Shown piece by piece: positions 1 through 16,991 of a stretch of 24,707 nt of DNA (position 1 is the first letter of the stretch; every line of letters starts with the position of its first letter). A program made the translations under genes and the position numbers. The notes under the pieces were generated by a model. It saw nothing but the letters and a program-made list of their open reading frames with translations. It was not told where the DNA came from and did not search any database. The DNA is from a virus. The stretch covers positions 1 through 24,707 of IMG/VR virus record IMGVR_UViG_3300017757_000145, one strand, 5' to 3'.

Positions 1-3000
1 TACTTCTTTAAATTGTGGATTAACACTTGCAACTTGGAATACATTTGCATTTAAGTTACTTAATCCTGCATCTACAAAATATAAAAAGTCATCTACTCTA
101 ACACCGTCTATGTCACCATTTCTAATTTTAAATGCAGGTGTGCCTTTAAAACTATATGGTCTTGTATCTGCTTCTACATCTCTAAGAACATCCATAGGTA
201 CTGATGTTGAAGCCATTCGTGCTTTTGCTGGAATACTAACATTAGCATAACTATCATAAGTTATGTTAGTGATGTTACCACTCAGAACTGGTTGTATTTT
301 AGATACACCAACTAGTTGTGGATGGTTGTATGATATGTTACCAATTGTAATTGTTTCGTCATATAATCTATTTTCATTTTCCCATATTACAACTTCTTTG
401 CTTGTATCCGGAATTGTTGTATCGTAAACTTTCTCACCATTTGCATATCTTAAGTTAGCATCTCTAGACGATATTGTACCGTCACCTTTAAGCACTAACA
501 CATAATCAAAGAATGCAGTTTGGTCATAACTAGCATCTACGTTACTTAAATCATTACCGTCTGAAATATTTGTACTAAGTTGATAATCTGTAAAGTATTT
601 TAATGAACCTGTCCCTTCATCATTTTGAACATAGGATACATTAGCATTAACTGGAGCAAGTTTATAAACATCAAACTCGCCATGTTCACTTCTAGCCATA
701 TGCACGATGTCATCTTGTGCTGGAATCTCACTTGCAAGTCTTGATGTTCTATCAAATAATGTTTCAAAATTTAATATATCAAATGCTTGATAATCTACAT
801 TATATTTACTTACATAACCTGCGTTAGGCAAAGGCTGGTAGTCTAAATCTGTTATACCAGTATGGTCTGCTTTTGTTGTAGTGGGCCATAAGCCTTTCTC
901 TGACATGTCCCTAGGTCTAACAACTAAACGTGTTGGATCATCAACATCTATTAATAGTGTGGAGTCTGACTTACTATCTGGTGTAATGTCAAACGTTCTC
1001 ATCTGTTGTAATTTTGCGGCTAAGGCATCACTTGCCTCTACTTTAATATTTAAAGTACTGCCTGGTAAATCTTTTTGGTATGCATCTACAAAGTCTATAC
1101 TTGCTCTTTCATCTACTATAATAGTTGAACCAGCGGATATGTTTCCACCTGGTAATGCTTGTACGTTTGCAAAGTTAATGTATGAGTTAGTTGTATCACT
1201 AGCAATACTAGAAACTGTGTATAACGGATCAGTAACTCTTTCTTCTAATTTAACACCATCTATGTAAACATCTAAATGTGGATATGTTCCATTAATAATT
1301 GTTAAGTTATCTGTAGCAACATTACCTGCATTTGATAATTCGTCACTTCTACTTAATGGTGCAAAAGTAAAACTAGTATTTCCACTTTCAACTAAACTAG
1401 TGTTTGTAATCTTAGTTCTACTACCTGGATCAAATTCCCAATTATGAGAACCTGCGGCTCCTACAACATTACCTGTTGTAGCAACTGAATCTACAGTAGC
1501 AGTTACATCTGAGTATGTTGTGCTGTTTGCACTTTCAAAACTGAATCTCTGTCTTGGTTGATATCTTTTTGCTTCTAAATCTAAATTTGCTAGTCCACTA
1601 CCTGCAAGTGTGAAGTCTGAACCTCTAAGTGTAATAACAAAGTTTTCTGACGTAGCATTTGCTATACGTTGTGAGGTTGCTTTTACTAAACTGTTACCAC
1701 TTGTTACACCAATGTCTGCTGTAATAGTTGGATCTAATGGCACGTTAGCCATTGTATTATTAATAGCACTAACAACATTGGCAACCATCTGTGCATTTGT
1801 GGCACTACCACTTGCTACTGTTGTTAAATCAATAGTAGTTGTTTGATGTGTTGCATTAGCATGGTGGTCAGTAATTGTAATATTAGGAACACTAGTTAAA
1901 TCACCTGTGTTGGTAATGTAAGTATTACTTGTTGCAAAAGGTTGCTGATATGACGTGCTAATGTTTGCTGTGAGCAACTGTGCCGCAATAACTGTTACTG
2001 CTGGATTAATAGTATAACCATATCCTGGCTCTGTAACATCTACAGTAGTAATTCTACCGTCTTGTCCAATATTAACTGTTGCTTGGGCAGTAGTACCTCC
2101 ACCATATGAGAAACTACCTGGTATCTCTGCTGGTGGTGGTTCAATTTCTAAAAATGGTCTTTGGAAGAACTTAGTGGTCCTATCCAATACTTCCACTTCT
2201 CTAACTTTACTTACAGTATCTTCTGGATATGCTATTTGTATAAGTTGTAGTTCGTCAGTAATTTCTGATTCGTTAACTTTAACATCCAAACTTTGTTGAT
2301 TTTCTACGTCACCGAATTCGCCAAATTTAAGTGCCCACTCGTCATAAACATTAACACTACCTGGCACTAGAACTTTATCACTGTTTAACAAAATCTTTAA
2401 TGCATTTTGTGTACCTTTACTTCTAATCATTCCCATATAGAAATCATATTGGTCATCTTGTGTAAGTTCAAATTCTCTCAGATATTTTCTTTCTTGATAT
2501 CCGTATTGTCTTCTACTTGCTTCGTATAATTGTTTTTGTACTGGTACATGTCCAATCTCATTGTATTTGCCCATGTCACCTGCTAACGTATCAAAGTTAG
2601 GCAATAATTCTGAACCTTGTATAATATATCCGTCTGCAGATAAAGTTCCGTCCCATGCTTTAGTACGTTTTGCTTTAATTTTTAATCTTGCTTGCCTTTG
2701 GTTTAATACATCATCGTATATTGTATCACCAAATATAGTTTTGTTTGAAATTAACAAACTATGTTCTATCTCATTTGTGTATAACAATGAGCCGTATAAT
2801 TCTTTTCCTTCTGGAGGACTAATAGTTATTAGTTGTCCATCTCTAATTATTTCACATTCTATAGGACTAATTTTTTTGCCTTCGGAATCTAGTAAACTAA
2901 ATTGTCCTTGGTCTATATCTTTTATTTCACTAACTTTTCCTATAGGAGCAATGAATTTTATTTTGGATGCCATTGGACTTAGATTTAATGTGTTGCCTGA

Positions 3001-6000
3001 ACTCCACTTACCTAAACTCCAAAATAGGAACTGTCTTCCTGAATATATCCAGTCGTTTACATCTGCTATTTCGTCATTGTAGTCACCAAAGTCATAGCCT
3101 TGTGATTCTTGTAATCTACCTAAACTTACTAAGAAGTCAAATACTTCTGATACTGTATCATACTCTGTTCCGTATTCTACTCTTGCTATTTCTCCAGTAC
3201 CACGCAAGTATAATGTTGCTTCTGCACCACCTACTGTAGGCAATGTTTGAAGTCTTTGCCAAATTTCTGTATTAGTTACAACACTTCCTGCCGGAGCAGG
3301 TGCTTTTGCTCTAAAGTAATTGTAGCCACTTTTAACAATTTCGCCTTCGTTGTACTGGTTTGTTCTATCATATGTACCAGGGTTAAGTGGCTCACCACCA
3401 ACTTTAACTTGTGTTTTCTCTTTTGCTGTATCACTTACTTCTATTTCAAAATATTTTTTGGTGCTGTTATATCCAAACACTTTATATTTCTGTGAACTTG
3501 TTAGTTGTATTAGCACACCGGTATAATCATTTGTTGAACTGTAAGGACCAACGTGTACATCTACTTGTATATCTTCTTGAGGTAATATCAAACTTGAACT
3601 GTTACCAGTTGTACTATAGTTGTCACTAAACACAGTCATTGTGTCTCTGTCAACAAAGCCTGCGAACTTATGTCCTAGTTTACTATTAACTGTTTTAAAT
3701 GGTTTACTGAATTCTGCTACAGGATTAAGTCCTTGGAATCTCAAGTAAGTATCTATAAATTGTGTATAACCAGTATTGGTTTGCAATATTGCACTTGCAT
3801 CTACACTACCATGTACAGTTGTGTTTTTGACCTTGTAACGTTTATTTGTTGTCTTATCAAGTAATTGGTTGGTGTCTGCAGAACCTCGGATAATATTTCC
3901 GGGCTCTGCAAACACACTGGCAAACTTACCGGGCTTGGTAAGTAAAAGGGCCTCTGCTATTGCAAAGGGATATGCTTCAGAAATTTTCCATGCGTTCTCT
4001 ACAGGAGCACCATCTCCAAATTTCCAATTCTTTCCTGCTAGTGTGGTATCCGCACTATAGGTTGTTGTTAGTGTACTTGTTAATTTATAATTCTCTGTAC
4101 CGCTTTGATGTGTAGCAGTACCTGTAGCATTTGTACTTTGACTTGTAGGTGTAAAGAAATATTTAGGACCTACTGTGAATGGATATGCTGGTTGTAAGTT
4201 GCTATCCACTGTTACTACATAATATCTTGTTCCACCTGGGAATTCAGGTGTTACACCATAACGTGTATTAAATTCATCTAGGTCTCCAGTTGAAGAACTA
4301 TATTCATAGTCCTCAACAAATTCTCCAGTTGGTGTTCCACCTATTGTTGTTCTTAATGCAGTTTTTAAACTATAACCGCTTTCTAATCTTTTGATTGCAC
4401 TAGTGTTGTCTGCTCTGTCTGTATAACCATATGGACCGTAAATTGGTAAACCGTCAAATGCCCAACCAACAATTGGTGAGTGACTGTCGGTTGCCCAACT
4501 ATTTAATCCAACTGTTTGTGAACTAGGTTGTGCGTAACCATATATGTTATCTGATTTAACAAAACCACTAGCACTATCCATGCTCACATCGTTTCTATAC
4601 AAGTGAGCGTATGTGAATGAGTTGCTTAATGAGTGTGCGTTGCCAGTACTGGCATTAAATATTTGTGCTCCATTAACTGCAACACCAACTGCTGTTGATC
4701 CTGTGCTTGTTGCACTTGCAAAGTTTCCGGATGTATTATCGCCTGTATTAGTTGTAATAGTATACTTGATTTCTTTATCGTCAATAAAGTTTGTATTATC
4801 TGTTGTTGGGAATGTGCCTACAGTATGATTGATAACATTGTTTGTAGTAACATTTAAAATAGCACCACTGTCTAATTCTGCAACACTTAATCCATCTGCA
4901 GTTTCTATAAATGAAGTTGCGTTTGCAGTAGCAGTACCCGTTGTCGATTCTACCCAACTAATACTTTTAGTTGTTGCAGTTGTACTAATAATATTTGCAG
5001 GTGCTATTAAGTTAGCACCAGTATCTACTGGTATCTCAGTTTTTAATCCTATTCTTCTGTATGGATTATTTTTTGTATATCTATTATTTGTAACATTTTC
5101 TCTGTCACCTTGTCTAATTATACCTTCTTCTAAATCTTCCCATAAAGGTTTGTTATTTAAACCATAGTCAGTATATGTAGTAGTAATGTACTGAGTATCA
5201 AACCAACTTGGCTTTTTAACAAAGCCTAACATTTCCCATGGATGAGTATGTGGTCTTTCTGTATCGTAACATGCTTCGTATATACCTCTCCAATACCCAG
5301 GCTTTGGAGTTCCTGAGTTGTAGTTCCATGTGAAGTAGTTTGATGCATCATAGTATTCATTGATTACAAAGTCTACATCATTTCTATTAATGAATTGGTT
5401 AAAGTTACTTCTTAATAAGTTATAATAACTGCTTCTAGTTAAACCTGTATCTGTTCTAAAACGTCCTGGGCGTACAGAATGTACGTTTAAGTCGTAATGA
5501 CTATCTCTTTTTCTAAATGTATCTGTGATACCATTCCAAACTCTTTTCTCAAATTCTAATAGTATGTGGTCATGAATATCATTGGCGGCAACTGTTTTAC
5601 TACCGTCATGTCCAACAATAACATTAATTGGTTCTTTAAAACTTGTGTCAGTTATAATCTCTGGTTTGTATGCAGGATACAATCCCATTGCACTTGGCGT
5701 AGGAGGTGTTTGACAACTTTCTCTATCCTTGTCATATATTCTAAATTTAAGTGTATTACCTAATGTTAAAGTATAAGAGTCAGTGAAGTTTACAGTATTA
5801 GAAGTTGTTGTACTTGTTACTGTATAATCTTGTTCTGCATCTAATAATTTTTCTATACCGTCTGAACCTGTGTCGTACACATACAAACTATTTTCAATTT
5901 TAGATAAGTCACAGTACTTGCTTAATGTAATTGCTTTTGTTAGTACGTTATTTACTATAACTCGTTGTTCGTCATACTTGTCGCCAAATGCCGCCATGTA

Positions 6001-8493
6001 ACTATAATCAAAAACATTTTTACCTTGGTTATAACTAATTACTGCTTCTAACACAAACTCTAAAGTCTCACCGTAACTTTGGTTACTAGTGTCGTTTGCA
6101 TCTATATAATTCTTAATTTCTTTCTTTAATCTATTTTTATACTTTACATATTCATCACTATTAAATTCCAATGAATCTTTAATATTAAACTTGTCATTAC
6201 TAAACAGCCAACTTGCCATTTGTAAGTCATCATCTGTTTGTATAAGTTTATCTGCAAAACTATTATCTACTTCTATATCTGTAAAGTTATTTGTTGCTAG
6301 TGGCTCACCGGTTATGTCTTCTTGATTTTTAATCAAGTTATAGAAATGCTCCAGGTATTGCGGTTGAGCAACTGTTTCAATATCTAAATTGTTTAAGTTA
6401 CTGTGCCAACTTAAAGGTAAATTATATCTACCTTTACGATTTGCATCTTTAATAAACCCTGTTGTAGTTTTTGTTTGAACATCTATAACATCATCTTTAT
6501 TAAGTTCAAATGTTCCAAATGTAATTGCTATGTGCGTTGGGTTATAACTAAATGTTCTATTTCTTACACCATTAATAAAAACTCTAATACTGCTTTCATC
6601 TACTTCTGGTTTAGCAGTTATTTCCCATATTGTTCTTTCATTTTTAATATCTTGGTCATTAACAATAAATCTGTCTTCTACTTTTTGATTTGTCTTTTTA
6701 TCTTGTGCCTTCCAACTTGTATCCTTAACAACATTTCCGTTAGATAAAGTTTTGCTATAATAAATGTAACCTTTCATATAACTTTTTTCTGTACCACCAA
6801 AAGGTATGTAAGAATGTAAATCTGTTTCTAAGTCGTTAGCAAAAACTATTTCACTAAAGTTATTAAAGTTGCTGTAAGTTAACGGAAAGCCTAAAACACT
6901 ATCGTCTGGCTTAGAAGCATTTGCTTCTTTATAACTGAATATTTTTGTCCCAGAAAAATCACTTTTAGGATATACAGAATCGCTGTTTAAAGAAATACCG
7001 TTGTAATCGTATGCATTAAAAAGGATTGGTGTATTAACTTTATTCTTTTGTTGTCCTTCAATCCATTTTGTTCCGTTCCAGTAATATTCTACACCTTGTT
7101 TTCTAGCACCAAACTTAACACTAATAACATCGCCAATACTTGCTGTATAACTTTCCGGTGTTAATGTAGCCAAAGATGGGCTACCACCATCACTACCAAT
7201 TGTGTATATTTTTTGTGCTATACTTGTTTCTTCGTTAGGGAACATAATCCTGTTACCCACTTCAAGTGTAACACCGTCAATAACACCGCCGTTTGGTCTG
7301 CCTTCTACTTCGCTTTTTAAATTATCAAAAGATGCAATTTCTACTGCGTCAACACCTGCTGTACCAAAATTATGAAGTTCTATATTTCTATCAAATTCTA
7401 AAATAGGTCTAACAGCACGTTTATCCTTGCTAGGTAATTGGTCACCTGCATCTAGGAAGTTTTGTCTGTGATACCAAAAGTTAATTCTACTCCAAACATT
7501 ATTATCAGTAGCACCACGTTCCATCATGATGTAGTCATTAACTTCTTGAGTGTTATCACTATCAAATGGGCCTGTGTCGTATGCTCCAATACCACCCACA
7601 ATATATTGTAGTTGTTGTCCTACTGGAGTTATATAGCCGTCCCATAAAGGTCTTCCTGTAGTTGAGTCTACCTGGGTCATTGTTGAATAAGAGAAATTAT
7701 CTACATCTACATAGTTCTCTATACCGACCAATCCACCTGATTTAAATCTAGTATCATCTTCATCATCAGTTGTGTTTACTAATGTATCTGATGCAATATC
7801 TATAATAGTTCTATCGTATAGTATATAATCTTCTGTACTAAATGTTGTTGCAAAGTTTTGTTCTTTGTTTATTAATAGTATGCTTTCCCCTACACCTTCT
7901 ACAATCCAACGTGTATCGTTCATATATGTATCTGGTATTACATAGTTTCCACTGAATGATATTACCATACCATTTTTAAATACTGTGCCATCGGGTGCTG
8001 TGTAAGATGTTTTTCCTAATATATCTTTTTCTATATTAATAGGTGTTGTGCTTGTACCTGCTATAATCTTTGCTGTAGGGCCTGTTGGACTCCAAAAGTA
8101 TTCTTGATAGTTAATAAATTTATCAATGTTAATAGGTGGAAGAAAACTATAAAAGTTACTATCGAATAATGTATTTTGGTTTTGTGTATCAACACCATAA
8201 CTTTTTAAAACATTTAAAAAGTCTTGATAGAACATTGCATTTTCACTTTGTCCAGATAACTGATTAATATTATTAACTACAGGATCGAGACTATATTTGT
8301 CTCTAGTTGGATTATGCTCTACCTTATATGTATCTTCAGGATCAAAAACGTCAAAATCTTTTGAACCAATGTAAGCACTTATATTTTCTACATTTGCTTT
8401 TGAAAATAGTTGCTCAACAGTTGTATCAAAAAAGTTTTTGACAGTTGTTGTTTGGTTAACTACTGGTAGTTTTGTATATTTCTTATCTGCCAC
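1..8493 (-). CDS. Giant virion structural protein with YHYH-type domain (partial)
   Basis: The frame is open for 2831 codons from a GTG at 8493 and runs off the left edge, so the C-terminus is missing and the protein exceeds about 310 kDa. The GTG is chosen because an in-frame TAA lies immediately before it, an AGGA site sits 6 nt upstream, and the next in-frame ATG is about 80 codons later. The N-terminus (VKNFFDTTVEQLF, then NYQEYFWSPTGP near residues 120-140) and a HPWEMLGF segment near residue 1084 resemble large structural proteins beside gp6 in marine T4-like phages. Residues about 1265-1360 look like a YHYH domain (VGVAVNG, then HSPIVGWAFDG and PIYGPYGY from residue 1338), but the namesake YHYH tetrad is not present. 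A glycine-rich beta motif (EPGYGYTINPAVTV) lies near residue 2150. It follows gp6 by 11 nt, where T4 has wedge gene 7, so a peripheral baseplate or fibre-linked role is inferred. No catalytic motif was seen. Confidence 0.85.
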   Translation of the reverse strand, partial: MADKKYTKLPVVNQTTTVKNFFDTTVEQLFSKANVENISAYIGSKDFDVFDPEDTYKVEHNPTRDKYSLDPVVNNINQLSGQSENAMFYQDFLNVLKSYGVDTQNQNTLFDSNFYSFLPPINIDKFINYQEYFWSPTGPTAKIIAGTSTTPINIEKDILGKTSYTAPDGTVFKNGMVISFSGNYVIPDTYMNDTRWIVEGVGESILLINKEQNFATTFSTEDYILYDRTIIDIASDTLVNTTDDEDDTRFKSGGLVGIENYVDVDNFSYSTMTQVDSTTGRPLWDGYITPVGQQLQYIVGGIGAYDTGPFDSDNTQEVNDYIMMERGATDNNVWSRINFWYHRQNFLDAGDQLPSKDKRAVRPILEFDRNIELHNFGTAGVDAVEIASFDNLKSEVEGRPNGGVIDGVTLEVGNRIMFPNEETSIAQKIYTIGSDGGSPSLATLTPESYTASIGDVISVKFGARKQGVEYYWNGTKWIEGQQKNKVNTPILFNAYDYNGISLNSDSVYPKSDFSGTKIFSYKEANASKPDDSVLGFPLTYSNFNNFSEIVFANDLETDLHSYIPFGGTEKSYMKGYIYYSKTLSNGNVVKDTSWKAQDKKTNQKVEDRFIVNDQDIKNERTIWEITAKPEVDESSIRVFINGVRNRTFSYNPTHIAITFGTFELNKDDVIDVQTKTTTGFIKDANRKGRYNLPLSWHSNLNNLDIETVAQPQYLEHFYNLIKNQEDITGEPLATNNFTDIEVDNSFADKLIQTDDDLQMASWLFSNDKFNIKDSLEFNSDEYVKYKNRLKKEIKNYIDANDTSNQSYGETLEFVLEAVISYNQGKNVFDYSYMAAFGDKYDEQRVIVNNVLTKAITLSKYCDLSKIENSLYVYDTGSDGIEKLLDAEQDYTVTSTTTSNTVNFTDSYTLTLGNTLKFRIYDKDRESCQTPPTPSAMGLYPAYKPEIITDTSFKEPINVIVGHDGSKTVAANDIHDHILLEFEKRVWNGITDTFRKRDSHYDLNVHSVRPGRFRTDTGLTRSSYYNLLRSNFNQFINRNDVDFVINEYYDASNYFTWNYNSGTPKPGYWRGIYEACYDTERPHTHPWEMLGFVKKPSWFDTQYITTTYTDYGLNNKPLWEDLEEGIIRQGDRENVTNNRYTKNNPYRRIGLKTEIPVDTGANLIAPANIISTTATTKSISWVESTTGTATANATSFIETADGLSVAELDSGAILNVTTNNVINHTVGTFPTTDNTNFIDDKEIKYTITTNTGDNTSGNFASATSTGSTAVGVAVNGAQIFNASTGNAHSLSNSFTYAHLYRNDVSMDSASGFVKSDNIYGYAQPSSQTVGLNSWATDSHSPIVGWAFDGLPIYGPYGYTDRADNTSAIKRLESGYSLKTALRTTIGGTPTGEFVEDYEYSSSTGDLDEFNTRYGVTPEFPGGTRYYVVTVDSNLQPAYPFTVGPKYFFTPTSQSTNATGTATHQSGTENYKLTSTLTTTYSADTTLAGKNWKFGDGAPVENAWKISEAYPFAIAEALLLTKPGKFASVFAEPGNIIRGSADTNQLLDKTTNKRYKVKNTTVHGSVDASAILQTNTGYTQFIDTYLRFQGLNPVAEFSKPFKTVNSKLGHKFAGFVDRDTMTVFSDNYSTTGNSSSLILPQEDIQVDVHVGPYSSTNDYTGVLIQLTSSQKYKVFGYNSTKKYFEIEVSDTAKEKTQVKVGGEPLNPGTYDRTNQYNEGEIVKSGYNYFRAKAPAPAGSVVTNTEIWQRLQTLPTVGGAEATLYLRGTGEIARVEYGTEYDTVSEVFDFLVSLGRLQESQGYDFGDYNDEIADVNDWIYSGRQFLFWSLGKWSSGNTLNLSPMASKIKFIAPIGKVSEIKDIDQGQFSLLDSEGKKISPIECEIIRDGQLITISPPEGKELYGSLLYTNEIEHSLLISNKTIFGDTIYDDVLNQRQARLKIKAKRTKAWDGTLSADGYIIQGSELLPNFDTLAGDMGKYNEIGHVPVQKQLYEASRRQYGYQERKYLREFELTQDDQYDFYMGMIRSKGTQNALKILLNSDKVLVPGSVNVYDEWALKFGEFGDVENQQSLDVKVNESEITDELQLIQIAYPEDTVSKVREVEVLDRTTKFFQRPFLEIEPPPAEIPGSFSYGGGTTAQATVNIGQDGRITTVDVTEPGYGYTINPAVTVIAAQLLTANISTSYQQPFATSNTYITNTGDLTSVPNITITDHHANATHQTTTIDLTTVASGSATNAQMVANVVSAINNTMANVPLDPTITADIGVTSGNSLVKATSQRIANATSENFVITLRGSDFTLAGSGLANLDLEAKRYQPRQRFSFESANSTTYSDVTATVDSVATTGNVVGAAGSHNWEFDPGSRTKITNTSLVESGNTSFTFAPLSRSDELSNAGNVATDNLTIINGTYPHLDVYIDGVKLEERVTDPLYTVSSIASDTTNSYINFANVQALPGGNISAGSTIIVDERASIDFVDAYQKDLPGSTLNIKVEASDALAAKLQQMRTFDITPDSKSDSTLLIDVDDPTRLVVRPRDMSEKGLWPTTTKADHTGITDLDYQPLPNAGYVSKYNVDYQAFDILNFETLFDRTSRLASEIPAQDDIVHMARSEHGEFDVYKLAPVNANVSYVQNDEGTGSLKYFTDYQLSTNISDGNDLSNVDASYDQTAFFDYVLVLKGDGTISSRDANLRYANGEKVYDTTIPDTSKEVVIWENENRLYDETITIGNISYNHPQLVGVSKIQPVLSGNITNITYDSYANVSIPAKARMASTSVPMDVLRDVEADTRPYSFKGTPAFKIRNGDIDGVRVDDFLYFVDAGLSNLNANVFQVASVNPQFKEV

Positions 8494-12931: not shown

Positions 12932-13303
12932 TTAAATCTCTACGTCTGTCCTAGCATATTCAAGAAATAATCTATCCTCGTCTAGGGTTGGCAAAAATTT
13001 TAATTGTACTTGTACTCGTATTAAATGGTCTAAAGTTTGTGTAAAGATTTCATCAATCTGTACTCTTGGGTCTTTTTCGATAACCCTTCTCACTTCCTCT
13101 TTAACTTCTTCAATTACGAATTGGTCTAGTGGGTTCATCAAAATGTCGTATAATGTTGTTCCGAAGTTAGGTCTCATCACTCGTTCGCCTTTTCTTGCTT
13201 TTAGTTCATTCATTAAATCTTGTTTAATCAAATCACCATCAATAAGTGTATAAGGTGCCCTAACCTTCCCTACTGTACTAAACCCTTTGTATATGTTTGC
13301 CAT
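12932..13303 (-). CDS. 25: Baseplate wedge protein gp25
   Basis: This is the gp25/GPW family wedge component, which binds gp6 and gp53 near the sheath-initiating part of the baseplate. The conserved core is RKGERVMRPNFGTTLYD at residues 37-53, followed by an acidic helical stretch (EEVKEEVRRVIEKDPRV) and a beta-rich end. The 123-residue length is normal (T4 about 132). I prefer the ATG at 13303 (MANIYKGF, like the MANI start of T4 gp25) over an in-frame GTG at 13318, because the GTG lies inside a GATAAATA late-promoter-like box. No Shine-Dalgarno site precedes the ATG. gp6 starts 2 nt after its stop. The older name 'lysozyme-like' for this family does not imply enzyme activity. Confidence 0.92.
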   Translation of the reverse strand: MANIYKGFSTVGKVRAPYTLIDGDLIKQDLMNELKARKGERVMRPNFGTTLYDILMNPLDQFVIEEVKEEVRRVIEKDPRVQIDEIFTQTLDHLIRVQVQLKFLPTLDEDRLFLEYARTDVEI

Positions 13304-13308
13304 ACTGA

Positions 13309-13316
13309 TATTTATC
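13309..13316 (-). promoter_or_regulatory. Candidate late promoter for gp25-gp6-giant gene
   Basis: On the minus strand this reads GATAAATA, one base away from the T4 late box TATAAATA read by gp55. It ends 5 nt before the gp25 ATG. With T4 geometry (box at about -13 to -6), transcription would start at or next to the A of the ATG, giving a leaderless mRNA. The box is seen in the sequence; its activity is inferred. Confidence 0.55.
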
Positions 13317-13324
13317 ACTAATCG

Positions 13325-13340
13325 TTAAAACTAGTTTTAA
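13325..13340. repeat. Perfect 16-bp palindrome between divergent genes
   Basis: TTAAAACTAGTTTTAA is its own reverse complement. It sits between the predicted late promoter of gp25 and that of the plus-strand cassette, about 20-40 bp upstream of the predicted gp25 start site. It could be a protein-binding site or a cruciform-prone spacer. No T-run follows on either strand, so it is a poor intrinsic terminator. Confidence 0.5.
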
Positions 13341-13345
13341 TACAC

Positions 13346-13359
13346 CACTTTTTGAAGTG
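13346..13359 (+). other. Short hairpin upstream of hydrolase cassette
   Basis: CACTT-TTTG-AAGTG forms a 5-bp stem with a 4-nt loop. The stem can extend by three pairs past a C/C mismatch. It lies upstream of the candidate late promoter at 13375, so it would not be in the cassette mRNA if that promoter is used. No function can be assigned. Confidence 0.3.
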
Positions 13360-13374
13360 CTGTGTTTTGCTATG

Positions 13375-13382
13375 GATAAGTA
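13375..13382 (+). promoter_or_regulatory. Candidate late promoter for hydrolase cassette
   Basis: GATAAGTA is one base off the GATAAATA boxes elsewhere in the window. The 18 nt from 13375 to 13392 match the gp48-side promoter-plus-ribosome-site module at 16 positions (GATAAgTACATaTAGGAG against GATAAaTACATgTAGGAG). With T4 late geometry the mRNA would begin at the A of AGGAG (13388). No sigma-70 promoter with acceptable spacing was seen here. Confidence 0.5.
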
Positions 13383-13387
13383 CATAT

Positions 13388-13392
13388 AGGAG
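13388..13392 (+). promoter_or_regulatory. Strong ribosome binding site of leader peptide
   Basis: AGGAG lies 4 nt before the ATG at 13397. It is the strongest Shine-Dalgarno site of the cassette and serves the 14-codon leader frame directly. The 93-aa gene that follows has only AGGG 5 nt before its start. Confidence 0.55.
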
Positions 13393-13396
13393 CAAG

Positions 13397-13441
13397 ATGA
13401 GAATCTTGTATTGTTTTACTCAATTCATAGGGATAATATGA
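13397..13441 (+). CDS. 14-codon leader peptide, coupled to next gene
   Basis: The frame encodes MRILYCFTQFIGII. It has a strong AGGAG site, and its TGA stop overlaps the ATG of the next gene as ATGA (13438-13441). Ribosomes ending here would be placed on the next start, so its likely role is to feed translation into the cassette. The peptide is hydrophobic and aromatic; a function of the peptide itself cannot be judged. It could be chance, but the combination of a strong ribosome site and an exact ATGA junction argues that it is translated. Confidence 0.5.
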   Translation: MRILYCFTQFIGII

Positions 13442-13719
13442 AAAACGTACTAGAGCGATTTGAAAATATCGTACAACTTGCGTATTCTGTCAATAAGGAA
13501 ATTCAATCCAAAGGATACGAGGGAGCCGTAGGTTACGGTCCCAGGTTCAGAAAAATGCTACACAAAAACGGCAAAAGAGTGCATTCCATGGGAATATATG
13601 ACTATTACACCAAGAAGTATGTTCTTTTTGAAATGGTTAATATGGTTGGACAAAAGGACAAAATACCTCCTGAGTTCGCACAAATGGAGAGACTTGTAAA
13701 GGATGCCGTTACCGCCTAG
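13438..13719 (+). CDS. Hypothetical 93-aa protein
   Basis: I do not recognise this protein. It is 93 residues, soluble-looking and fairly basic, with an amphipathic N-terminal helix (VLERFENIVQLAYSVNKEI), a Gly/Arg segment (GYGPRFRKMLHKNGKRVH) and a Tyr-rich part (MGIYDYYTKKYVLFEM). It has no signal peptide or membrane segment. The ATG at 13438 is preferred over a TTG at 13411 because it has AGGG 5 nt upstream and sits in an ATGA overlap with the leader peptide. Its 3' end overlaps the hydrolase start by 17 nt, so the two are probably translated together. It is first in a plus-strand cassette flanked by minus-strand baseplate genes. Confidence 0.75.
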   Translation: MKNVLERFENIVQLAYSVNKEIQSKGYEGAVGYGPRFRKMLHKNGKRVHSMGIYDYYTKKYVLFEMVNMVGQKDKIPPEFAQMERLVKDAVTA

Positions 13720-14347
13720 CAAAAATATTGTTTTCGTTCACGGCAGTGGACAAAGCCACTTGAGTTTTAATTTTCTTGAGCTGTGGTTACCAGAGCATTA
13801 CTCAATGTGCTTCAACTACAGCACTCAAGAAAACCCTGATGATATTATAAAAAGATTTAAGATGCTATTAGACTTAAATTTTGATGGTGAACCCATACAC
13901 ATTATTGCACATAGTTATGGTTGCTTAATAGCATCTTTAATAACAAAAGAGTATGACAATGTGGAATCACTTATAGCATTATCAAGTCCATGGGCAGGCT
14001 CAAGAGCCGCTAAGTGGCTTAATATGGTTTTTAGAGAAAGCAAACTTTTTGCAACCACCAAACCCGGAAGTCCTCTTTTAAAGGCAATTGCTAGTCTAAA
14101 GGTAGATTTTCCGATAACTAATATTGTATCCACAGGAACTAAGTCGTCAGCAAATGCGTTAGCAGGTTTAGGAGCAACGCCAAATGATGGATTACTAACA
14201 TTGGAGACACAACGAGCCGTCCCAAAAGGCTTTTCTAGTTGTGAAACAATTGATATGGAAGTTAGTCATAATGAATTGCTGATGTCTATGGACGTTGTGG
14301 AATTAATTAAAGAGAAAATATTTGATGAACCAGAATATATCACTTAA
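13703..14347 (+). CDS. Alpha/beta hydrolase (lipase/esterase-like)
   Basis: The 214-residue protein shows the alpha/beta hydrolase pattern. There is an N-terminal strand and oxyanion loop (NIVFVHGSGQ, residues 8-17), a nucleophile elbow (IIAHSYGC, Ser71 as the candidate nucleophile), an LSSPWAGS turn (residues 93-100) typical of lipase-like members, a probable acid in PNDGLLTLE (Asp162) and a late histidine (SHNELL, His189). Order and spacing fit a complete Ser-Asp-His triad, so activity on an ester, thioester or amide bond is plausible; the substrate is unknown. There is no signal peptide or membrane segment, so it acts in the host cytoplasm or as a virion part. It overlaps the preceding gene by 17 nt and the next by 23 nt. 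The start is an ATG with GGAGAG 11 nt upstream. Host envelope lipids or a metabolite are possible targets, but only by inference. Confidence 0.85.
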   Translation: MPLPPSKNIVFVHGSGQSHLSFNFLELWLPEHYSMCFNYSTQENPDDIIKRFKMLLDLNFDGEPIHIIAHSYGCLIASLITKEYDNVESLIALSSPWAGSRAAKWLNMVFRESKLFATTKPGSPLLKAIASLKVDFPITNIVSTGTKSSANALAGLGATPNDGLLTLETQRAVPKGFSSCETIDMEVSHNELLMSMDVVELIKEKIFDEPEYIT

Positions 14348-14528
14348 CAATACCGTAGAAGAAGAACTTCGAATAATGCTTGTAGAAAAAAATAATGAAT
14401 GTAATTTACTAAGAAAACAAATAGAAGTTTTAAGACATACTGTTGCTGAAGAACAAGAAGGCAAGTATAGGGCTTATATTAAGTTTGCAGATTTACAAAA
14501 AGAATTTGAAACTCTTAAGAAAAAGTAA
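14325..14528 (+). CDS. Small coiled-coil protein, 67 aa
   Basis: I do not recognise a family. Residues about 12-65 form a nearly continuous charged helix with spaced Leu/Ile (EEELRIMLVEKNNECNLL, then KQIEVLRHTVAEEQEGKY) and end in a lysine run, so a dimeric or trimeric coiled coil is likely. The start is the ATG at 14325, overlapping the hydrolase gene by 23 nt; a TTG one codon earlier is less likely. The gene ends 6 nt before the convergent stop of gp5, with no room for a terminator between them. It may be a partner or scaffold for the hydrolase or for a tail part, but nothing in the sequence shows which. Confidence 0.65.
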   Translation: MNQNISLNNTVEEELRIMLVEKNNECNLLRKQIEVLRHTVAEEQEGKYRAYIKFADLQKEFETLKKK

Positions 14529-14534
14529 ATAATA

Positions 14535-16991
14535 CTACGACAATAATTCTAACTGTCTACGTTTTATACGTTGTGCCATAATACCCCAACCCATGCCGTT
14601 TGCAGTAGGAGTTTCTGTTTCTAAGTCATAAGCATCAGGCATACCAAATAAGTATGCTTCATAAATTCGTCTTTGTTTTAGTGTTGGTCTAAATGTACTA
14701 TTAGTAACCCACTTCTGTAATAGTTGTGGCACAAGTCTGTTATCTTGTCCTGTTAGTAATGCATCTTTGACTTCACTGCCCATAAAATTATTATGTCCAA
14801 TACTATTACCAAATAACACAGTTGCCAACATGGCATTCTTACTCATGTTCATACCCATTAATGTACCTACCATAAACTTACCGGAGTTACTAAGTCCAGC
14901 ACTACCTAATTTCTGAGATACGTTGTTAGTCATAGCAAATTTTAAATTATGTATAATTGTGCCTTTAGTTCCGTCAATTGAATAACTGCCCTTAGTTCCT
15001 AGTACCTTTGATAGTCCGTAACTAGGCAAGTCTGCTTCTAATGTATTTTGGATTATATCTGCGTACTCACTTGCTCCTCTAGCCATGCCAGGAGTTTTAA
15101 AATTGCTTTGTGGATCTAATATTTTACCATCACCAAACATAGTTGCACCAGCATCTAATTCATTTCTATCTAATACATGCCCAAGTCCTACAACTGTATT
15201 ACCGCTACTGTTCTTAACTGGTGTAGGTAAACTAGTACCGCATGTAGCCAATAATTTGGCACCAGCATCTGCCATTCCGTTTTTATCCATATTACCAGCC
15301 ATACTTTGTACATCAGTTGGAACTGCTTTTAATACACTTTTCTTGTAGTTAGGTGTTGCACCAGGTTGTGGTGCTGGAGTAAATCCTGTTCCAACATCTA
15401 TACTACCATCTGGTTGAGGTACTGTTGCTGGTTTTGTGTCTGTTTGTTCAATTGCGTTTGTTGGATTATCTTTAACTGTGGCATCTTGTGACACCATTTT
15501 ATTAGAGTCTTGTGTAAGTGCTGTTGCAGTTGCATGACCAACCCAAGGTTCTCTAGTAGGGTTAATTTCTATAATACTTATGAATTCTGTTTTATCTCCT
15601 TCACGTTCACCGTCTGTGGGTAAAGGATTATCTTCTCCAGGATCTTCTTCATTGTACTCGAACGCAGGCTTCTCTACACTTGGATCCTCATGTGTTATCT
15701 CTGTGAATGGCTCAACGACTAAAGATTCTTTTGCCTGTTCAGCACCACCGCCATCATTAAGATGCACAGTCGAACCTATAATATTATTCTTCCCACCTGC
15801 TTGGGAATTTATTTCTCCACTGGCGTGTTGCATTATATCTGCACCACTAATAACAGCCTTGCCGGCAACTAATATATGTCCATCTCCTGCTGACTGAATA
15901 GTGTATTCTCCTAAAGCACGTTGACTTATTAAACTCTCTGCATCTAAATGGAAGTCGTGTCCTGCTTTAGTTGTTATATCATTACCTGCACTAATTTTTA
16001 AGTCACCTGCTTTTTCAGAATAAACACCAGCATTAATATTAATACCTAATCCGGCTTCTAAATTTAAAAACTCATCTGCTCTTATATTAATATTTTTTGT
16101 TGCTCTCATGTTTATGTTTTCATCACTGAATACATGTACACTTCCGTTTTCTGCTAGTTCTACCCATGCAGTACCTTTGCTGTTAATAACATAGATGATA
16201 CCGTTTGTATCATCCATTAAAATCTGATTACCTAATGCTGTTCGTAAACGTATGTGTCGTTGTTCCAACGCATCGTCCATAACAAACTGATGTCCACCAC
16301 GTCTATTTGTTCCGTCTTTTTTACCTGACTTTAAGCCTGGCTCTTCTGGACCTGGTGTCAATATTCCAAATACTTGTGAAGGACTTTCTCTCCTAGCACC
16401 AGCAGTTGTTGTTCCTCTAATTGGGTCGTTTATTAAACCTTGGTCTAATATAGATTTTGTTAAAATATGATGTAAAGGTCTCGAAGCCGTTTTACCATGA
16501 CTTGGATCATCTTCTCTTTTATTTTTTTCTGCAACTGGTAAAGGTAAACTACTACCGTATGTTGTTCCTGAGGGAATACCTGGAACCATATGTTGCATTT
16601 GGTCTGGGAATAAGCAACCAATTATAATTGGAAATTTTTTCTTACCATCGCCGAATATAACTAATACAAAGTTACCTGGATCTGGTGGAACCATCCACAT
16701 ACCATAGGACTTCATAGTCTCATCATAACTTTTTACATTCTTGCCTATCTTCTCACTAGGAGTACTTCCTGCAAAAGGTGAACTCCAGTATGCATTAAAA
16801 TACCCTGTGGGGTCGTCTCTGTCTTTTGACAGCATTGGAATGTAAACAGGTATACGTCCGCTGTTTGTATCATCCTTAGGTCTTACAATAACTTCGCCTA
16901 CATATATACCGTGGTCTAACTCTGCGGCAGACCTCATCTTTTCTGTTTGATTCTTTCTAGTTACTTTGAATTCGTCTGGTCTATATCCCAT
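14535..16991 (-). CDS. 5: Baseplate hub/spike protein gp5
   Basis: gp5 forms the trimeric membrane-piercing spike under the hub. Residues about 28-135 are the OB-fold (GIYVGEVIVRPKDD, then YGMWMVPPDPGNFVLVIFGD and PIIIGCLFPD). Residues about 275-414 are the spike beta-helix, with short alternating repeats (ENINMRATKNINIRADEFLN). Then comes a Pro/Glu/Thr-rich linker (about 415-560). The C-terminal domain (about 565-818) carries VVGLGHVL at 600-607 and a helical KWVTNSTFRPTLKQRR segment, which recall T4-type lysozyme. If aligned this way, the positions of the T4 lysozyme catalytic residues Glu11, Asp20 and Thr26 hold Gly, Asn and Val, so enzyme activity is doubtful. In T4 the lysozyme lies between OB-fold and helix; here it would be at the end. 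The length is 818 against 575 in T4. The start overlaps the upstream stop (TAATG), with GGAGGT 8 nt before it. Confidence 0.9.
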   Translation of the reverse strand: MGYRPDEFKVTRKNQTEKMRSAAELDHGIYVGEVIVRPKDDTNSGRIPVYIPMLSKDRDDPTGYFNAYWSSPFAGSTPSEKIGKNVKSYDETMKSYGMWMVPPDPGNFVLVIFGDGKKKFPIIIGCLFPDQMQHMVPGIPSGTTYGSSLPLPVAEKNKREDDPSHGKTASRPLHHILTKSILDQGLINDPIRGTTTAGARRESPSQVFGILTPGPEEPGLKSGKKDGTNRRGGHQFVMDDALEQRHIRLRTALGNQILMDDTNGIIYVINSKGTAWVELAENGSVHVFSDENINMRATKNINIRADEFLNLEAGLGININAGVYSEKAGDLKISAGNDITTKAGHDFHLDAESLISQRALGEYTIQSAGDGHILVAGKAVISGADIMQHASGEINSQAGGKNNIIGSTVHLNDGGGAEQAKESLVVEPFTEITHEDPSVEKPAFEYNEEDPGEDNPLPTDGEREGDKTEFISIIEINPTREPWVGHATATALTQDSNKMVSQDATVKDNPTNAIEQTDTKPATVPQPDGSIDVGTGFTPAPQPGATPNYKKSVLKAVPTDVQSMAGNMDKNGMADAGAKLLATCGTSLPTPVKNSSGNTVVGLGHVLDRNELDAGATMFGDGKILDPQSNFKTPGMARGASEYADIIQNTLEADLPSYGLSKVLGTKGSYSIDGTKGTIIHNLKFAMTNNVSQKLGSAGLSNSGKFMVGTLMGMNMSKNAMLATVLFGNSIGHNNFMGSEVKDALLTGQDNRLVPQLLQKWVTNSTFRPTLKQRRIYEAYLFGMPDAYDLETETPTANGMGWGIMAQRIKRRQLELLS

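Follow-up and report, generated by a model that had tools for sequence, protein, structure and literature searches.

A short run of genes that includes an apparent alpha/beta hydrolase interrupts a T4-type baseplate cluster and is read in the direction opposite to the baseplate genes, and the question that it raises is when such an enzyme would be made and what it would do for the virus. The locus is part of a 24.7-kb virus fragment (24,707 nucleotides; hereafter the window, i.e., the whole stretch of DNA analysed). The original prediction described the run as a late accessory module with a lipid- or ester-cleaving enzyme, perhaps used in entry, lysis or host takeover, and two small partners. 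Phage accessory operons with an alpha/beta hydrolase are of a kind already known; the one analysed here is conserved and modular, and belongs to large phages without close cultured relatives. The papers on jumbo-phage lipases that were consulted do not describe the module.

Gene arrangement of the locus

The minus strand of the window carries the baseplate cluster in the order gp7-position gene, gp6, gp25, gp5, a gene for an 825-aa protein, gp53 and a structural protein gene, and the plus strand carries gp55, gp47 and gp46 together with the cassette. On one side the cassette is bounded by gp25 (minus strand, start ATG at 13303; Pfam GPW_gp25, E 1e-9), and on the other by gp5 (14535-16991, minus), the product of which matches annotated baseplate hub proteins. 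Between them, on the plus strand, we identified p93 (93 aa, 13438-13719), the lipase-type alpha/beta hydrolase (214 aa, 13703-14347) and a coiled-coil protein (67 aa, 14325-14528), with overlaps of 17 nt between p93 and the hydrolase and 23 nt between the hydrolase and the coiled coil. The original prediction had listed four overlapping plus-strand frames, with overlaps of 4, 17 and 23 nt. All of the overlaps and three conserved genes were recovered, the two small partners being real, uncharacterised conserved genes, whereas the fourth frame, a 14-aa leader at 13397-13441 (plus) that overlaps p93 by 4 nt, does not qualify as a gene: its ATG falls inside a 5′ transcript hairpin (see below) and is lost in relatives, e.g., L039, L010 and L011.

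The gp5-type hub (818 aa) shows in Pfam only an OB-type domain, below the cut-off, and its residues after about 412 are unmatched. A lysozyme domain was not found in this protein (Pfam, E 0.001); the annotation given to cultured relatives is ‘baseplate hub subunit and tail lysozyme’.

Conservation and modularity of the cassette

For both gp5 and gp55, the nearest cultured counterparts come from jumbo phages, namely, PA5oct-type Pseudomonas phages, Phosso, Atu_ph07 and the CBB/GAP32 group, none of which reaches 60% identity. Neither the hydrolase nor p93 had a match among 50,697 phage records, and searches with divergent relatives of each cassette protein likewise found none in cultured phages, except for PA5oct-type p93. 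A scan of genome contigs for cellular homologues gave nothing beyond one weak partial match. The hydrolase is, however, carried by more than 110 environmental viral contigs, with the coiled coil next to it wherever the following gene is covered, and 76 IMG/VR loci have a close hydrolase; the phages with the cassette come mostly from aquatic samples. At the examined loci, gp25 lies on one side and the coiled coil followed by gp5 on the other, where the contig reaches that far, and gene order and orientation are constant (the coiled coils of L011 and L022 were missed by BLAST and became visible on reading the DNA). The 17-nt overlap of p93 and the hydrolase is kept in nearly all related contigs. 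Comparison of synteny across related phages, which had been proposed as a check, thus shows the block recurring in IMG/VR contigs with gene order, strand and slot unchanged, far beyond chance, and together with the frames confirms the predicted placement between minus-strand gp25 and gp5.

All three genes are subject to purifying selection. The dN/dS ratios are about 0.04-0.12 for p93, the most constrained of the three, 0.06-0.24 for the hydrolase, and mostly 0.1-0.35 for the coiled coil, in which the motifs LNNTxEEELR and EEQxxKYRAY are conserved. Distances between hydrolases track those between gp25 proteins (Mantel r 0.90; permutation maximum 0.14), which indicates that the block was inherited together with the baseplate cluster.

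A scan anchored on gp25 shows that the slot is a modular island, the contents of which are always on the strand opposite gp25. We observed p93 with the hydrolase and the coiled coil, the hydrolase with the coiled coil, p93 with the coiled coil, p93 alone, and the coiled coil alone. The hydrolases themselves form two groups, with and without p93; in the second group (n = 42 loci), a profile scan found the hydrolase and coiled coil without p93 in 40 of the 42. Among the profile-scanned contigs, the hydrolase never occurs without the coiled coil, whereas p93 and the coiled coil can each be present where the hydrolase is missing; by gene content, then, hydrolase and coiled coil are strictly linked. 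The existence of hydrolase-free viruses with the same slot implies that the need for the hydrolase is conditional. In L217, a contig of a related phage, two further minus-strand genes (704-2701 and 2703-3248) sit between p93 and gp25. One encodes a 665-aa, outer-membrane-receptor-like protein, here phage-coded, that is hydrophobic over an N-terminal stretch and has a Plug domain of the TonB-dependent-receptor type (E 7e-7), and the second slot gene encodes a nucleoside-phosphorylase-like protein.

The closest comparison among cultured phages is with PA5oct (Arenbergviridae), which shares the arrangement of gp6, gp25, opposite-strand genes and gp5, followed further on by gp55, gp47 and gp46. 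Its slot holds two opposite-strand genes, EST35_0131 and EST35_0132, the first of which is a homologue of p93 (hhalign probability 94%, E 1e-7; HMM E 7.5e-6). Unlike the window, PA5oct has no hydrolase in the slot, and EST35_0132 bears no relation to the coiled coil. This homologue in the slot and the modular gene contents suggest that p93 is the older resident, to which the hydrolase and coiled coil were later added as a pair.

Modularity of this kind also bears on the main rival explanation of the cassette, namely, anti-defence or superinfection exclusion, under which the hydrolase would remove an acyl group or degrade a defence signal or a modification of a defence protein, while p93 and the coiled coil would be further, optional counter-defence proteins. 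The presence and absence of three genes in one slot, the early-type promoter described below, and the receptor-like and phosphorylase-like genes in the L217 slot, as seen in accessory islands, all favour such a role. Nevertheless, inheritance within the group is strictly vertical, and every slot-covering contig of the window's group has the cassette, both of which look more like a core function, so that we rate a counter-defence role as unlikely.

The predicted structure of p93 (pLDDT 88.1) consists of a helix, three strands and a helix, and no solved structure in the PDB matched it significantly in a fold search. The profile matches of both small proteins, p93 and the coiled coil, are weak. 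Mimicry of ZipA on FtsZ by p93 was considered and rejected: the ZipA C-terminal domain profile scored 19.3 bits, below the cut-off of 23 (E 0.0011), with weak matches in 13 of 28 p93 members.

Transcription of the cassette

A probable sigma-70-type promoter precedes the cassette at 13352-13380 (plus; TTGAAG-17-GATAAG). It is weak in the window, where its score of 8/12 is no better than that of shuffled sequences, but in most relatives the corresponding position, 55-65 bases upstream of p93, carries a strong site (TTGACT-17-CATAAT). Over 18 loci the promoter scores add up to 174, compared to a mean of 144 and a maximum of 153 in 300 sets of dinucleotide shuffles. PA5oct has TTGACG-17-TATACT at the same place, followed by a hairpin. 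Members of the second hydrolase group (L242, L255, L259 and L262) have the promoter immediately upstream of the hydrolase gene, with only a few bases separating the end of the -10 box from the ATG, so that the mRNA might lack a leader. A promoter of the TTGACA/TATAAT type also precedes the gp55 operon, which lies on the same strand as the cassette.

Just after the promoter, the transcript would form a hairpin (13392-13409, plus; GCAAGAT-GAGA-ATCTTGT, followed by a T-rich stretch) with a 7-pair stem and a loop of usually four bases. In 13 distinct sequences, none of the 7 pairs is lost (100% of cells paired) and both sides have changed in 30 cells, a covariation that none of 500 shuffles reached. 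The count was made on 13 stem-loops cut by hand after a best-hairpin search, so that the selection favours pairing; hand cutting was used because the hairpins came out misaligned when MAFFT was applied to all leaders. Comparison of L009, L039 and L010, which is independent of the best-hairpin selection, shows several coupled stem changes. A covarying hairpin near the predicted transcript start, next to a U-rich stretch, might be an mRNA stabiliser or an attenuator.

The signals on the opposite strand are of another kind. A late-promoter-like motif, GATAAATA, lies at 13309-13316 (minus), before gp25 and not before the cassette, and is found at the same place in relatives and in PA5oct; no late TATAAATA-type promoter was found ahead of p93 on the plus strand. 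A palindrome, TTAAAACTAGTTTTAA (13325-13340), lies upstream of the gp25 late motif; it occurs once in the window and is probably part of the late promoter. In most of the contigs tested, including one of 340 kb, the palindrome TTAAAACNNGTTTTAA is a single copy 4-8 bp upstream of GATAAATA. Contig G009 has two further copies, each 4-8 bp from a GATAAATA motif, and because these copies accompany late motifs, we set aside the palindrome as an operator of the cassette; it might serve some T4-type late promoters as an uncommon upstream element. In L154, a contig of a related phage, copies at 3140-3155 and 3176-3191 lie upstream of a plus-strand gene, downstream of which an 801-aa lipoprotein-like protein with FG-GAP repeats is encoded (4338-6743, minus).

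Promoters of the sigma-70 type suggest that the cassette belongs to the early or middle programme. The original prediction had called the module late, which is not supported; its strand, its promoter and the resemblance to the promoter arrangement of gp55 point to independent transcription, early or at the early/middle stage.

The same observations weigh on an enzyme of the virion or baseplate that would cleave envelope lipids or esters at entry. Such a role is favoured by the location of the cassette, which in every relative is flanked by gp25 and gp5, by the lipase-like fold described below, and by a gp5 hub in which Pfam recognises no lysozyme domain (E 0.001), but the cassette is on the opposite strand and has a sigma-70 promoter instead of a late motif. 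Furthermore, the structural neighbours in PA5oct mostly have ‘ESI-MS/MS’ notes, whereas the p93 homologue has none, and many relatives lack the hydrolase in an otherwise equal baseplate cluster. With the cytoplasmic character of the enzyme (see below) added to strand, promoter and the missing virion mass-spectrometry note, we regard entry as improbable.

Fold and active site of the hydrolase

The alpha/beta hydrolase fold of the original prediction was upheld by profile and modelled structure alike. The window hydrolase matches Pfam Abhydrolase_6 with 27.7 bits (cut-off, 26.3), as do all 28 aligned members at E 0.01 or better. An AlphaFold2 model built from 28 sequences (pLDDT 82.6, pTM 0.83) has six strands with helices between them, as for a central parallel sheet. 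Foldseek against the PDB gave 753 matches at E <= 0.001, led by the lipases 5h6g (TM 0.71), CalB (0.70), LipA and PlaB, and the matches in a viral structure library were PGAP1, LCAT and esterase proteins; at 10-20% identity, these matches reflect a general lipase-like fold.

In the model, strand 65-70, Ser71 within A-H-S-Y-G, and helix 73-80 form a nucleophile elbow, Asp162 belongs to an N-D-G motif after strand 138-143, and His189 comes after strand 180-185. The apparently complete Ser71-Asp162-His189 triad and the HG oxyanion loop (HGSGQ, 13-17) that had been read from the window turned out to be invariant: all three residues, as well as His13-Gly14 and Gly16, are the same in 49 of 49 distinct sequences, in which Asp162 is the only invariant aspartate. 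The divergent second group retains GHSFGG, NDGM and AGHSG. It is likely that the three residues come together in space. Given that residues 149-162, including Asp162, form a low-confidence loop of the model (pLDDT <50), one may ask whether the protein is degenerate and non-catalytic, serving in binding. The invariance of the triad and of the oxyanion His-Gly across the 49 sequences, with no other invariant aspartate, speaks against this, and we consider a purely binding protein the least credible of the alternatives.

The protein resembles compact lipases (B. subtilis LipA family I.4, the marine Streptomyces lipase 5h6g and Candida antarctica lipase B) in its six-strand core, A-H-S-x-G elbow and HG oxyanion loop, with the acid in N-D-G after the seventh canonical strand and the histidine after the eighth; at 94-100 (SPW-GS) it has S-P-W-x-G-S where these lipases have T-P-x-x-G-S. 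It differs from them in identity (12-20%), in the lack of a secretion signal, and in being encoded by a phage, within an early-type operon that also specifies two small partner proteins. The A-x-S-x-G motif of LipA family I.4 appears as AHSYG here and as GHSFG in the second group; unlike that family, the hydrolase has no hydrophobic N terminus, and the best LipA profile reached only E 0.013 over residues 5-91. Profiles of PGAP1, Abhydrolase_6 and UPF0227 (YqiA-type) match weakly and partially, covering the first 120 residues, with the second group scoring above the cut-offs for PGAP1 and UPF0227; the C-terminal half has no family match.

Neither a signal peptide nor a membrane segment was found in the hydrolase, the highest 19-residue mean hydropathy being 1.1, which suggests that the protein is probably cytoplasmic. 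This bears on a further alternative, an esterase of lysis or egress comparable to LysB of mycobacteriophages, itself a phage-coded alpha/beta hydrolase esterase. Phage esterases and lipases of PHROG 789 and 35497 are likewise phage-coded alpha/beta hydrolases, but matched at only E 0.12-0.25, and both they and LysB differ from the window hydrolase in size and context. Against this general likeness, the protein lacks any sign of export, no LysB-type family match was found in Pfam, PHROGs or NCBIfam, and the promoter is of the early type; the sigma-70 consensus and the nearest relatives also point to Gram-negative hosts, which would have no mycolic acids. No lysis cassette was found around the hydrolase among the genes of the window. 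A role in lysis is thus very unlikely. Of the three roles originally proposed, entry and lysis are disfavoured by the lack of a signal peptide or membrane segment and by a strand and promoter unlike those of virion genes, and host takeover remains the most likely.

A probable function in host takeover

We consider it probable, judging from gene content, promoters and fold, that the cassette is an early-transcribed host-takeover operon of large T4-like phages, encoding a cytoplasmic lipase-type ester or thioester hydrolase and its linked coiled-coil partner. The promoter and hairpin strongly suggest that transcription by host RNA polymerase with sigma-70 starts before p93 and that the mRNA begins with the hairpin. 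The hydrolase, as a lipase-type serine hydrolase, would cut an ester or thioester early in infection, its candidate targets being an acyl lipid, acyl-CoA or ACP, or a similar host metabolite. The coiled coil may be a partner or scaffold of the enzyme, and p93 an older neighbour that would be functional also without it. The intracellular esterase or thioesterase role is proposed by analogy, from the weak PGAP1 and UPF0227 profile matches, which are above the cut-off only in the second group, and from knowledge of the family. We put forward more tentatively that the hydrolase and its always-linked coiled coil may be a new two-protein early weapon, for host lipid or acyl remodelling or for counter-defence, that occupies a fixed slot with p93 and is so far confined to uncultivated viruses.

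Accessory genes with an early-type promoter inside a late structural cluster are easily mis-annotated as structural; here, in dozens of genomes, the two programmes can be told apart by strand and promoter class. The cassette is a testable set made up of an enzyme, its obligate partner and an ancient small protein that has a homologue in cultured PA5oct. Should the substrate prove to be a host lipid or an acyl carrier, the cassette would represent a takeover step that is absent from the isolates searched and common in large aquatic phages.
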